In this document: positions 16,961 through 26,060 of the stretch, piece after piece
Position numbering within the stretch: the first letter of the stretch is position 1
Layout: each line of letters starts with the position of its first letter
Virus record (IMG/VR): IMGVR_UViG_3300025120_000413
Coordinates: 1 to 27,837 of that record
Source: a virus
Length of the DNA stretch: 27,837 nt
Strand: one strand, 5' to 3'
Translations under genes and position numbers: made by a program
Notes under the pieces: model-generated
What the model saw: only the letters and a program-made list of their open reading frames with translations
Database searches by the model: none
Told to the model about the DNA's origin: nothing

Positions 16961-17803
16961 TTATTTGAAATAATCTTCCATCACGCCTTCTCTGTAAAGA
17001 TCCTGCGTAACACAATGCAGACCGTTGTCCCAAAACTCTTTATCACGGAATTCACAAATTACAGGATTAATTTTATTTTTTTCCAAGAAGTTGAATAAAG
17101 TTGTATTTGGTTCCGTCATTATACAGTTTTCCTCATTGACTGAAAGTATGTTTACATGATAATTGCTTTCTGCAGAATTGCCACCCCAGGTGTGATCAAC
17201 CAACTTTTGCTTTTTATAGTTTTCCAGATAGCAAATATCCCATCCTGGATAAATTTGTTCCAAGTTGGGTAAATCCGTTGTTGCAACTATAACTCCGGGT
17301 TTCAATATACTGTATACTCCGTCCATGTGCCATCCATGTCTTGTGACAGTTGTTCTATAATGGTTATCTTTGAGCCATTCTAGTATGGTGTCCTCCGCTT
17401 CTGGTTTAACATCTTTGCTTATATCCCAGTGTATGTGGTTTCCACAACGTATCATGTTGCCACTGGATATATCGCTGTCTAAAAACCATTTAATATTTTT
17501 TTTATCAATCTCTTTTAATATGCCTTTGTAACCATTGATCAGTTTACCAACAACTAGGTTGTCTCCAATTGCAACAAAATAATCCCGGGGCGACACCGGT
17601 GGACGTTTTGTGGCATCTTTTGTTTCCGGTCTGTAACAGGAAACATCAAACGACTCCAACGTTGCAACAAGGTTGTCCAGATCCTCTGCTGTGGTCTGCA
17701 TTACACCCTTAAGATCATCGGACACACTTTCCGGAGCATGTACGCTACCAACTATGCAGTGTTTGAGTGGATGGAATGTTGTATATCCTTTTACGGGTAT
17801 CAT
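16961..17803 (-). CDS. Amidinotransferase-family protein (guanidino-group modifying enzyme)
   Basis: 280 residues. The pattern follows the glycine/inosamine amidinotransferase and dimethylargininase superfamily: PPVSPRDYFVAIGDNLVVG (residues 68-86, the family's PRD strand), DISSGNMIRCGNHIHWD, HGWHMDGVYSILKPGVIV with catalytic His159 and nearby Asp161, and near the C-terminus WDNGLHCVTQDL with the expected nucleophile Cys264. Amidinotransferases move an amidino group from arginine to an amine; relatives hydrolyse guanidines, so the reaction here is open. It is somewhat shorter than typical AGAT enzymes (about 350-420). The ATG overlaps the GIY-YIG stop (ATGA), so the two are translated together. 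No substrate can be named. Confidence 0.78.
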   Translation of the reverse strand: MIPVKGYTTFHPLKHCIVGSVHAPESVSDDLKGVMQTTAEDLDNLVATLESFDVSCYRPETKDATKRPPVSPRDYFVAIGDNLVVGKLINGYKGILKEIDKKNIKWFLDSDISSGNMIRCGNHIHWDISKDVKPEAEDTILEWLKDNHYRTTVTRHGWHMDGVYSILKPGVIVATTDLPNLEQIYPGWDICYLENYKKQKLVDHTWGGNSAESNYHVNILSVNEENCIMTEPNTTLFNFLEKNKINPVICEFRDKEFWDNGLHCVTQDLYREGVMEDYFK

Positions 17804-20288: not shown

Positions 20289-20501
20289 CTAGAAGAAAGG
20301 TTGACCGGTTTTCTTGGTAGTTTCCAAATTATCCTTGATCAGTTGTGCCGCTATATCTCGTTCGTCGTTGGAGAAATTTAAGGCCTCCTGCCAGGTTACC
20401 CCACCCCTCATGTACCAGCATATCTTCATAATTTGTAATTTCATGTTCTTGGATTCGTTTTCTAGGTCTTTGAGGTACTTGACAATGTCAGAGTCCCCCA
20501 T
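20289..20501 (-). CDS. C-terminal extension ORF of gp26, probably made by -1 frameshift
   Basis: 70 residues from the ATG at 20501 (MGDSDIVKYLKDLENESKNM). The centre, MKICWYMRGGVTWQEAL, and the end, IAAQLIKDNLETTKKTGQPFF, look like the small ORF found after gp26 in marine T4-like phages. The ATG lies 11 nt past the gp26 stop, has no ribosome site, and is inside an 8-bp hairpin. The frame is open upstream through the gp26 slippery site, being -1 relative to gp26 (joining residues FRITLLT). It is therefore most likely translated as a gp26 fusion of about 362 residues, like the G/GT tail assembly chaperones of lambda. Independent translation is not ruled out. Confidence 0.72.
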   Translation of the reverse strand: MGDSDIVKYLKDLENESKNMKLQIMKICWYMRGGVTWQEALNFSNDERDIAAQLIKDNLETTKKTGQPFF

Positions 20502-20528
20502 TGTCAGTAGGGTTATCCGAAAAAATTT
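20480..20528 (-). promoter_or_regulatory. Programmed -1 ribosomal frameshift signal: slippery heptamer plus hairpin
   Basis: On the minus strand, in gp26 frame, the codons TCA AAT TTT TTC GGA TAA contain the heptamer A AAT TTT (20528-20522), of the X XXY YYZ type. From 20506 a perfect 8-bp stem, TGACAATG pairing with CATTGTCA (20487-20480), follows 15 nt downstream; three more pairs across one bulged A bring the stem to 12 nt from the heptamer. The -1 frame then runs without a stop into the 70-residue ORF. All parts are seen directly; the function is inferred. Confidence 0.75.
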
Positions 20529-21376
20529 GATTGATCAAAAGTGATTGGCACGTTGTACGTGGCAGGCACTCCCCTCTTTATCTGCTCATCTGTTGCTTTT
20601 ATTTTCAGAGGCGGTGTTTGTGCTTGTGTTTTGAGACTTTGTATTTTTTGTTCTATCTCTTTCACTGTCTTTGTATCGGCCTTGTTGCAGAATTCTGCGA
20701 TCTGATTCCTGTTGGTTACCACTTCTCCGTCCGGTGTCGTTATCTCGCCAATCGCATCGACCAACAGTGCGAAGTTCACGGTGTTCATTATTTCCCAACT
20801 CTTTGAGAATGCAGTCTGTTTCTGTTCTTCAGAAAGTGTGCTGTCGTTCACTGTGCCAATCATTTTCTGCTGTTCAAATCTGGCTAGTTGTACCTTGGCC
20901 ACCTGCCTGTAAGTCAGTGGTGCCACTTTTATCTTGAATCCTTTATTTGTGGTTGTGTAATCATCTATTTTGAGTTTGTTTACCTGTTCCAGTAGGGACG
21001 GCAGGTTGATCGTGTGTTCCTGATCTTCTAAAGTGACCGGTACCTGATACTTGATGTCCATTGTTTCCCCATAGGTGGCGATCCTTATGGCCAGCAACAC
21101 CGCGTCAGTATCGTAGTTCACCATACTCCATGGATCCAATAGATTCGGCACACATGACTTGATTACGTCAACTACAGCCTGCCCGTTCATCAACGCATCT
21201 GGTGTTTTGAACGTAAGTTCATCCTTGGCCGTCATAGGCAGTACGGGTATCTCACCTGTTTCTGTGGGTGTGTATACATCTTTGGTATAGTATCTACCTT
21301 CTGTGGGCAATTTGATGTATATAGCCGGTTGCCTGTGGTACTTCTGTAACGGGTTTGTGTTTGAGTTTTCTATCAT
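20513..21376 (-). CDS. 26: Baseplate hub assembly protein gp26
   Basis: 287 residues (T4 gp26: 208). The sequence NPLQKYHRQPAIYIKLPTEGRYY, then LPMTAKDELTFKTPDALMNGQAVVDVIKSCVP, then DAVLLAIRIATYGETM is the clear gp26 family pattern, also shared with tail assembly proteins of other myophages. gp26 acts in building the central hub of the baseplate. AGGA lies 7 nt before the ATG, and a late promoter CATAAATA at 21419-21426 gives a leader of about 37 nt. The gene is divergent from the tape-measure gene. Its last codons carry a -1 slippery site joining it to the next ORF, which supports a tail assembly chaperone-like role. Confidence 0.92.
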   Translation of the reverse strand: MIENSNTNPLQKYHRQPAIYIKLPTEGRYYTKDVYTPTETGEIPVLPMTAKDELTFKTPDALMNGQAVVDVIKSCVPNLLDPWSMVNYDTDAVLLAIRIATYGETMDIKYQVPVTLEDQEHTINLPSLLEQVNKLKIDDYTTTNKGFKIKVAPLTYRQVAKVQLARFEQQKMIGTVNDSTLSEEQKQTAFSKSWEIMNTVNFALLVDAIGEITTPDGEVVTNRNQIAEFCNKADTKTVKEIEQKIQSLKTQAQTPPLKIKATDEQIKRGVPATYNVPITFDQSNFFG

Positions 21377-21436: not shown

Positions 21437-21472
21437 ATGACAGGAATTAAAACCATATGGATAGAGAATTAG
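21437..21472 (+). other. Possible 11-codon upstream ORF overlapping the tape-measure start
   Basis: ATG at 21437 opens MTGIKTIWIEN and stops at TAG 21470-21472, overlapping the tape-measure start at 21457 in another frame. Its own ribosome site is poor, while AGGA inside it serves the tape-measure ATG. It could tune translation or be chance. Confidence 0.3.
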
Positions 21473-23439
21473 AGAGGATACTCAAAGATCTTACGTCAGA
21501 GCTCGGCGATCTGGTCAAGGTGCTAGGAAGCACAAACAAGAAGGTCATCGAAAATACCAAAACTCTCAAACAAGAAAAAGAAAGTCGTAAAAGAACAATA
21601 AAATCCATGGCGGATTTTATCAAAAAAAAGAAAGAGACTGGTTCTTTTGTCGAAGCGTTTGGTATAGAAGTCAAAGAGGCCACCGCAGAGTTGGGTGATT
21701 TCGAGCGTAAACTCGAGGGCATGCCAACACCATTGGGACTGGTTAAGAAGGCATTCAATGTTGTAAAAGATGCCGCCATGCAGTTGGGTGGTGCAATTAT
21801 AAAGACTGCACTGAACTTCGCAAGAGCAGACAGCAATATAAAGTCCTTAGAAGATGCCGTAAATGCAGGCATGGATGGAATAGATTTTTTAGGTCCGGCG
21901 GCACAAAAGGTCGCCAAAGAACTTGATGTGAACATAGAAATGTTAAGAGGATTGGCCCAATCAGGGGCAACCTTTGGAACTTCTTTATCTGACTTCAAAA
22001 ACGCGGCCACCAAGGCAAACATGCCTTTGCTACAGTTCCAAGAATTAATACAGGACAACACACAGGTGTTGGCCAAGATGTTTGGTTCGGTGAACCAAGG
22101 TGCGGTGCAGTTCGTTGAGTTGGGACGTGGACTGAGGGATTTCGTCAAGAAAGATTTGACAGGATTTGGTATCTCAATGGAAGAAGCCAATGAGTTCCTA
22201 GGCACTTTCACGGAACTACAGAGGGCACAAGGTCGTTCACAGGGCATGACAGCACAACAACTGTTGGCAGGCACACAGGGGTACATAAAGAATTTAACTC
22301 AACTGAGTAGGCTAACAGGCCAGAGTGTCAGAGAACTTGATGCACAGAACAGACAGAAATCAATGGACGGTGTGCTACAGGCCAAACTGGCACAGATGTC
22401 GACAGAGGACGCCATCAAATTTCAGAAGGTGCTTGACCTGTTCCCAGCAGGGGCACAACTGGCAGTGCAGGAACTGGGACTACTGGGTGCACCGGTGTCA
22501 GAGGCAGGCAAGGCCCTAGCAGTGCTGGGTGGTGGTGCAGTCAAAGACATCATAGACAGCGCCATGAACACCACAGGAACACTTTCTGAAGAAGCCACAG
22601 TGGCTCTTTCAAACAGGATCAAAACATTAGGCACCGACATACAGAATAGTGGTCTCGCAGACTCATTCGCAACAGCGGCATTGGCGGGCGGAGACAGTTT
22701 CTTCAGGGAAGGTAACAACCTGATCACTGCCATGGCAGGATCCGCCGCGGACATAAAGAAATTCACCAAGACCACTGCTGACGCACAGGCGGAATCGCCA
22801 ACCAAAGCATTAATGAATGTGAAGAACGCATTAGATGAGAACACTGTGCAGTTGCAAAAAGCCACCACAGCGATCATGGAAAAGTTGGTTCTTGATCCGG
22901 AAAGCGTGGGAGCCAGGGGAGTACAAGGCTTCGTCAATGACGGCGGGAAGTTGGCGGGGGAGGCCGTAGATAAATTGCTGGAGTACTTCGGTCTTAAAGA
23001 ACCAAGCAAGGATAAAGAAAAGAAAAAAACAACCTCAGCCAAGGAGTTGGACAGCATGATCATGAATGAAGATGGACTGGTCCCAGGCCTGGATGAATTC
23101 AACCAAGGAACAAACGGATTCAGGAACTTTGGATCTGGCACGCTGGCCAAGTTACACGGTGTGGAAGCGGTGGTTCCCAAGAACGACGTTGGGCAACTGG
23201 CTAATCTTCTAGCAGAGGTTGGGGCAACCACAACGAACACCACTGCGGGTGACACAGTGACCAACAATACCACACAAATGGACATGACGACCTTGAATGC
23301 AAACACTGAAAAACTCATAGCCGCCACCGAAATGAACTCAAACCACTTAAATACGCTAGTAACGATAGGTGCTATGACAGAAAGAAATACCAAAGAGACT
23401 AAAAATAATCTTGCAAACATGGACAAAAGCATAGTATAA
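21457..23439 (+). CDS. Tail tape measure protein (gp29-like)
   Basis: 660 residues (T4 gp29: 590). The N-terminus is a charged coiled coil (RELERILKDLTSELGDLVKVLGSTNKKVIENTK split over heptads). The middle alternates Ala/Gly-rich hydrophobic helices (PLGLVKKAFNVVKDAAMQLGGAIIKTALNFA), and residues 548-573 show the tape-measure signature GTNGFRNFGSGTLAKLHGVEAVV. A Thr/Asn-rich coil closes the protein. Using the usual 1.5 angstrom per residue of helix, it would specify a tail of roughly 100 nm. It is driven by the late promoter at 21386-21393 and is followed by the portal gene after 6 nt. Calling it gp29 rests on function, not on clear T4 sequence likeness. Confidence 0.8.
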   Translation: MDRELERILKDLTSELGDLVKVLGSTNKKVIENTKTLKQEKESRKRTIKSMADFIKKKKETGSFVEAFGIEVKEATAELGDFERKLEGMPTPLGLVKKAFNVVKDAAMQLGGAIIKTALNFARADSNIKSLEDAVNAGMDGIDFLGPAAQKVAKELDVNIEMLRGLAQSGATFGTSLSDFKNAATKANMPLLQFQELIQDNTQVLAKMFGSVNQGAVQFVELGRGLRDFVKKDLTGFGISMEEANEFLGTFTELQRAQGRSQGMTAQQLLAGTQGYIKNLTQLSRLTGQSVRELDAQNRQKSMDGVLQAKLAQMSTEDAIKFQKVLDLFPAGAQLAVQELGLLGAPVSEAGKALAVLGGGAVKDIIDSAMNTTGTLSEEATVALSNRIKTLGTDIQNSGLADSFATAALAGGDSFFREGNNLITAMAGSAADIKKFTKTTADAQAESPTKALMNVKNALDENTVQLQKATTAIMEKLVLDPESVGARGVQGFVNDGGKLAGEAVDKLLEYFGLKEPSKDKEKKKTTSAKELDSMIMNEDGLVPGLDEFNQGTNGFRNFGSGTLAKLHGVEAVVPKNDVGQLANLLAEVGATTTNTTAGDTVTNNTTQMDMTTLNANTEKLIAATEMNSNHLNTLVTIGAMTERNTKETKNNLANMDKSIV

Positions 23440-25191: not shown

Positions 25192-25434
25192 ATGAAACTG
25201 AATGAATTCTTCACATATGGCGCAGATGGCTTTGAACAGGACAAGACATACGAGCCTGAGAACGATATTTCAATTTTAGACGCAGAAGACACAAGGAAAA
25301 CAAGATTAACACTCAAACAAATCAACTCTATGAGGTTAGCATCAGAGGCACACGATGCTCAACAAAAGGAAGAAGCAGTATTTGTCCAAAAGATGTACGG
25401 ACAACCTGCACAAGACGATAACTTAGAGTTATAA
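25192..25434 (+). CDS. Small prohead core-type protein, gp67-like by position
   Basis: 80 residues, the same length as T4 gp67, and in the same place straight after gp20. The sequence is acidic and helical: MKLNEFFTYGADGFEQDKTYEPENDISILDAEDTRKTRLTLKQINSMRLAS split around a charged middle, ending in DDNLEL. T4 gp67 is an internal core protein cut by the gp21 protease. The likeness is in size, charge and place, not in motif, so the name is not assigned. AAGGA lies about 13 nt before the ATG, and its stop overlaps the next start (TAATG). Confidence 0.6.
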   Translation: MKLNEFFTYGADGFEQDKTYEPENDISILDAEDTRKTRLTLKQINSMRLASEAHDAQQKEEAVFVQKMYGQPAQDDNLEL

Positions 25435-26060
25435 TGTCATCAATAGCGTTCGTACTAGGCAACGGTGAATCACGTAAGGGCATCGAAATCAATGACCTTA
25501 AGGAAAAAGGCACCGTGTATGCCTGTAATGCCGTATACAGGACACATCAACCGGATTGGTTGATAGCGGTCGACCCAAAGATGATGAATGAGATTGCGGA
25601 AACAGATTATGTGGAACATAATAAAGTGTACTCCAATTTCAACACACAATACCAAAAGCACAAGAAATTGTTGGATCATGTGACTTGGTCCAAACCCAGC
25701 CTAGGATGGAGCAGTGGACCAACAGCACTAAAACTGGCCTGTGATCATGGATTCAAGGAAATCTACATACTAGGATTTGACTACCAAGGTCTCAAAGAGG
25801 ACAGCAAGAACAATGTATTCAGACTAAACAACATTTTTGGCGACACAAGAAACTACAAGAAAAGTAACGAGACTGCAACGTTCTATGGAAACTGGATGAA
25901 CCAAACAAAGAAGTGCCTTATGGACTACAAAGATGTGAACTTCCACCGTATTATACCCAACGGATGGTTCCGACCAAAAGATCTAGAATGGAAAGGCAAC
26001 ATAGATCATCCCACTATTAACCAATTTGTAGAGAAATTTCAGTTGCAGATTAAAATCTAG
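25434..26060 (+). CDS. DUF115/MptE-like protein of unknown function in the head operon
   Basis: 208 residues. IAFVLGNGESRKGIEI (residues 4-20) is a nucleotide-binding style Gly loop, followed by YACNAVYR, DWLIAVDPKMMNE, and SSGPTALKLACDHGFKEIYILGFDY (93-117). This order is seen in DUF115/6-hydroxymethylpterin pyrophosphokinase-like (MptE) proteins and in sialyltransferase-like sugar enzymes with a Rossmann fold. It sits between head core genes, sharing a start/stop overlap with the gp67-like gene, so it is expressed late with the capsid. Transfer of a sugar or phosphate group is a guess from the fold; the substrate is unknown. Confidence 0.65.
   Translation: MSSIAFVLGNGESRKGIEINDLKEKGTVYACNAVYRTHQPDWLIAVDPKMMNEIAETDYVEHNKVYSNFNTQYQKHKKLLDHVTWSKPSLGWSSGPTALKLACDHGFKEIYILGFDYQGLKEDSKNNVFRLNNIFGDTRNYKKSNETATFYGNWMNQTKKCLMDYKDVNFHRIIPNGWFRPKDLEWKGNIDHPTINQFVEKFQLQIKI

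Follow-up and report, generated by a model that had tools for sequence, protein, structure and literature searches.

The abstract of a 2022 study by Vladimirov, Gautam and Davidson is said to state that frameshifting appears conserved in several groups of T4-like phages. The study identifies the tail assembly chaperones of T4-like phages (Virology 566:9-15, PMID 34826709). The passages that cite it elsewhere refer to T4-like phages that do not frameshift but carry two chaperone genes, a short one and a long, fused one (PRFect, PMC10885494), and to poly-T -1 frameshift signals in the TAC-N genes of T4-like phages (the Adele paper, PMC12846349). A frameshifted tail chaperone in a T4-like phage is an already known kind, and the statement in a first-pass annotation of the DNA described here, that no case had been described in a T4-like gp26, is wrong. 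What is added here is a corrected slip site, a wide range of carriers (jumbo phages as well as a sizeable marine clade), a folding test and a variant in the Ackermannviridae; jumbo and marine phages may have been covered previously.

The window, meaning the whole stretch of DNA analysed, comprises 27,837 nucleotides of IMG/VR virus record IMGVR_UViG_3300025120_000413. Its gp26 gene, which has AGGA upstream of its own ATG, encodes a protein matching PF12322 at 47.3 bits (cut-off 24.5) and phrog_150 at E 3e-16. The 3' end of the gene reads ...GAT CAA TCA AAT TTT TTC GGA TAA, and the following features are considered:

20513..21376, minus strand: gp26, short form (TAC-N), 287 residues, PF12322 / phrog_150
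20519..20525, minus strand: slippery heptamer T_TTT_TTC, in frame with gp26; this is the conserved -1 slip site
20522..20528, minus strand: A_AAT_TTT, the heptamer of the first-pass annotation, overlapping T_TTT_TTC and not conserved
20289..20519, minus strand: -1 frame extension (TAC-C, putatively a gp51-like C-terminal part), with 76 codons and a stop following the slip, predicting a 362-residue fusion
20289..20501, minus strand: 70-residue ORF, a gene-finder style call inside the -1 frame
20476..20509, minus strand: hairpin, a possible stimulator, starting 9 nt after T_TTT_TTC
21457..23439, plus strand: large divergent ORF, a candidate for the tape measure protein (the expected client)

An open -1 frame running into the 70-residue ORF, as the first-pass annotation had described, begins 19 bases ahead of the gp26 stop and spans 81 codons. 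The same annotation placed the slip at A_AAT_TTT. That heptamer is indeed present in the gp26 frame near the stop (20528..20522), but it is not conserved; the conserved heptamer is U_UUU_UUC, found in the window as T_TTT_TTC three bases downstream. A_AAT_TTT was rejected as the main slip site because many relatives keep T_TTT_TTC without it, and it is not common to the 13 jumbo phages described below. The predicted fusion is identical whichever heptamer slips (286 gp26 residues plus 76, making 362), and the two forms proposed earlier, of 287 and about 362 residues, are retained as predictions.

Relatives were sought among phage genomes and viral contigs. The top tblastn matches among phage genomes are jumbo phages, of which 13 were examined: Atu_ph07, Phosso, XaC1, XbC2, Vibrio 2.275.O, Cassandra, CBB, 121Q, RaK2, GAP32, Kaldavass, BF and Hallingskeid. 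In all 13, T_TTT_TTC lies in frame within gp26, 1 to 11 codons ahead of the stop, and is followed by a homologous -1 frame that starts FFR (FFQ in Cassandra). When the window gp26 was used as a single protein to scan viral contigs, no relatives were found, whereas an IMG/VR scan with a gp26 alignment yielded 80 marine relatives (39-59% identity), every one with both T_TTT_TTC and the -1 frame. The heptamer is also present in two Synechococcus ACG-2014 phages, S-SSM4, KVP40, phiAS5, Moby and marine virus AG-345. Rhizobium phage RL2RES has T_TTT_TTG at the site, and pelagiphage HTVC008M has T_TTT_TTT with the gp26 stop immediately after it and an open homologous -1 frame. A scan with cyanophage gp26 added 80 further contigs, all 80 with T_TTT_TTC, and a KVP40 scan one new contig with the same heptamer. 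Over 184 loci (the window, the 13 jumbo phages, 80 marine contigs, cyanophages, KVP40, phiAS5, Moby, RL2RES and HTVC008M), the heptamer is U_UUU_UUC in 182 and ends in UUG (RL2RES) and UUU (HTVC008M) in one each. The comparison of relatives suggested in the first-pass annotation found a slippery heptamer and an open homologous -1 frame in every frameshifting relative examined; the exception to the pattern is T4's own gene pair.

Further tests used the relatives clustered at 60% protein identity, giving 40 clusters. These bear on the suggestion that the heptamer is kept solely to encode FF in gp26, with the -1 frame open by chance. The FF pair never varies in the protein and survives in T4 gp26. 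Two phenylalanines can, however, be coded in four ways, and the preceding codon is free not to end in T; with the amino acids fixed and codon use pooled, the probability of the observed choice (a T-ending codon, then TTT, then TTC) over the 40 clusters is log10 P -35.9, a figure whose true strength is lower because independence was assumed among related sequences. T_TTT_TTC occurs nowhere else within gp26 in these clusters. An in-frame X_XXY_YYZ heptamer is kept at this site beyond coding need. The base after it is G in 38 of 40 clusters, making the conserved arginine of FFR in the -1 product; gp26 itself, whose next residue is variable, gives no obvious cause for it. Nor do the -1 frames look like chance: those at random gp26 positions stay open for a mean of 7.9 codons, those after the slip for 56-77, and the extensions are homologous proteins among the relatives. 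This suggestion can be given almost no credence. The alternative that the 70-residue ORF is an independent gene, starting at its own ATG and translationally coupled to gp26, is also very improbable. In 121Q, BF, Kaldavass, KVP40 and Moby the ATG of the annotated downstream gene overlaps the gp26 stop, and AGGA precedes that gene in Moby. Against independence, the conserved core starts at FFR, before any such start, the start positions vary over the 40 clusters, ribosome-site-like sequences are few, and 11 of the 40 lack any ATG, GTG or TTG within 21 codons of the slip. An independent gene would also not preserve T_TTT_TTC. In the window, the ATG (20501) lies inside the hairpin stem with no AGGA-, GGAG- or GAGG-like sequence upstream, just as noted earlier. 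The 70-residue ORF is most probably just the end of the fusion, and by comparative evidence (conserved slip site, homologous -1 frame and chance tests) the programmed -1 frameshift proposed in the first-pass annotation is real.

The third alternative concerns function: the frameshifted long form could be a structural protein of the baseplate or hub and not a chaperone. The description of phrog_150 and many annotations say 'baseplate hub', and part of the T4 genetics assigned gp26 to the hub (PMC3004832). In Table 2 of the same source both gp26 and gp51 are classed as chaperones of hub assembly, and gp51 is described as required for assembly and missing from the final particle. A short and long pair from one gene is the tail-chaperone pattern, and tail chaperones of T4-like phages were assigned by Vladimirov et al. 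2022 (PMID 34826709). We consider a structural role unlikely. The AlphaFold2 model of gp26 (mean pLDDT 89.9) matches 'baseplate hub assembly protein' models of T4-like phages in BFVD, with E down to 3.8e-22. The extension is predicted to be all-helical (pLDDT 84.9), and its fold search in BFVD gave no match at E <= 0.001.

It is very probable, judging from the sequence comparisons, that gp26 and the following -1 frame constitute one tail assembly chaperone gene, with gp26 as the short form and gp26 plus a gp51-like tail as the long form. The comparisons show that the slip site, the -1 frame and local RNA folding are conserved and that the proteins are homologous to the gp26/gp51 families. We infer the slippage itself, its rate and the chaperone function, as follows. 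Most ribosomes would end at the gp26 stop and produce the 287-residue short form. In a minority, the P- and A-site tRNAs on UUU UUC would slip back one base to UUU UUU and continue through CGG..., giving the 362-residue long form, whose extra C-terminal domain would correspond to the C-terminal part of T4 gp51. On the model of lambda G/GT, both forms would then act together on the tape measure protein; the assignment of T4 26/51 as chaperones comes from published work.

The candidate client is the divergent large ORF, present in 73 of the 75 marine contigs that hold the upstream side; its RaK2 counterpart is annotated as similar to tape measure protein. Its profile was compared with those ORFs that lie downstream of gp26 in the genomes of KVP40 and cyanophage types, which gave no support (probability 1.2%). 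Among the marine contigs listed, counterparts range in length from about 700 to 1084 residues, which is tape-measure-like. Elsewhere in the window, a 280-residue ORF (17803..16961, minus strand) appears by eye to be amidinotransferase/deiminase-like, and a 208-residue ORF (25434..26060, plus strand) near the portal gene appears by eye to be DUF115-like.

The first-pass annotation also described a hairpin after the slip site. Its 8-bp stem exists (TGACAATG/CATTGTCA at 20506..20499 and 20487..20480), and the extension TAC/GTA requires one bulged A. The MFE is a moderate -11.5 kcal/mol, with a dinucleotide z of -0.33 to -2.07 that varies with the stretch folded. The hairpin was not found in the nearest relatives and was rejected as an element conserved among them; RNAalifold gave no consensus stem of importance in either group. 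Folding was compared in the 40 clusters between the 60 bases starting 5 nt after the heptamer and synonymous recodings of the -1 frame. It is stronger than the synonymous expectation (mean z -1.84, sem 0.25, with 55% below -2), against z of -0.20 to 0.01 in three gp26 control regions and -0.48 in a later part of the extension. The window's own value is -1.9, and several relatives have no unusual folding after the site. This points to stimulatory RNA structure in many relatives that is not one conserved stem.

The identity of the extension was approached through T4, in which gp26 and gp51 both belong to PF12322 and phrog_150 and the C-terminal part of gp51 also to phrog_634. The latter family is matched by seven of eight -1 extensions of the cyanophage/KVP40 type. 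The profile of these extensions aligns with the gp51 tail (hhalign E 3.5e-5) and with the window-type extension (E 2.9e-4, hhalign probability 40.6%) at the same FFR position; the window's own extension has no direct phrog match, and its link to phrog_634 is indirect. Fragments of the -1 ORF are already annotated 'gp51' in ACG-2014g, ACG-2014f and phiAS5. The 'gp51 base plate hub assembly catalyst' genes of cyanophages and phiAS5, 31 to 59 residues long, are by this evidence pieces of the gp26 -1 extension and not genes in their own right. These relationships support a T4-type tail assembly chaperone, as suggested in the first-pass annotation, as the likely role.

PF12322 genes number two in T4 (26 short, 51 long) and one in each of 23 other phages. 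T4 gp26 retains FF, coded TTC TTT, and the slip has therefore been lost. The simplest story for these gene counts would be that most lineages have a single frameshifted gene and that the T4 group has two genes. The Ackermannviridae differ: at the end of gp26, 2050H1, barely and 21 IMG/VR contigs (with 11 distinct sequences of the site among those listed) have (A/G)TT TTC AT(C/T) and then the stop; a homologous -1 frame is present, an X_XXY_YYZ heptamer is not. A different type of slip, possibly of four bases, may operate there. We lean slightly towards a single ancestral U_UUU_UUC frameshift in T4-like, jumbo and marine phages that was kept almost letter for letter, lost in the T4 group by splitting into 26 and 51, and replaced in the Ackermannviridae by an invariant (A/G)TTTTC-type slip without X_XXY_YYZ.

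These results provide a firm gene model for the long form of gp26, which is misannotated in most records examined: its tail is omitted (RaK2, Cassandra), called 'hypothetical protein' or annotated as 'gp51' fragments (cyanophages, phiAS5). A near-invariant heptamer over very different phages makes the ratio of short to long chaperone directly testable in laboratory phages.

Like lambda G/GT, P2 E/E' and other -1 tail chaperones, the locus has a predicted slip near the end of the short form that would yield a short and a long form. It differs from the lambda/HK97-type chaperones in that Foldseek found no significant match between the gp26 model and solved structures (the HK97 chaperone 2ob9 only at E 4.0) and no sequence match was found in the PDB. 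It would also differ from the lambda type in gene order, the window gp26 being divergent from the candidate tape measure gene and not directly upstream of it. The locus of Pseudomonas phage Adele and of the Vandenendeviridae and Andersonviridae, as described in PMC12846349, is alike in that TAC-N ends with a T-rich -1 motif (GTTTTT) and the downstream -1 frame is annotated as a separate gene; the phage families and the motif differ. The gp26/gp51 chaperones of T4-like phages share with the window the PF12322/phrog_150 N-terminal part, probably the gp51-like C-terminal part, the predicted short and long forms and, as cited in PMC12846349, poly-T frameshift signals in TAC-N genes. T4 itself makes the two forms from two genes, whereas the window and its relatives have a single PF12322 gene with a slip site.
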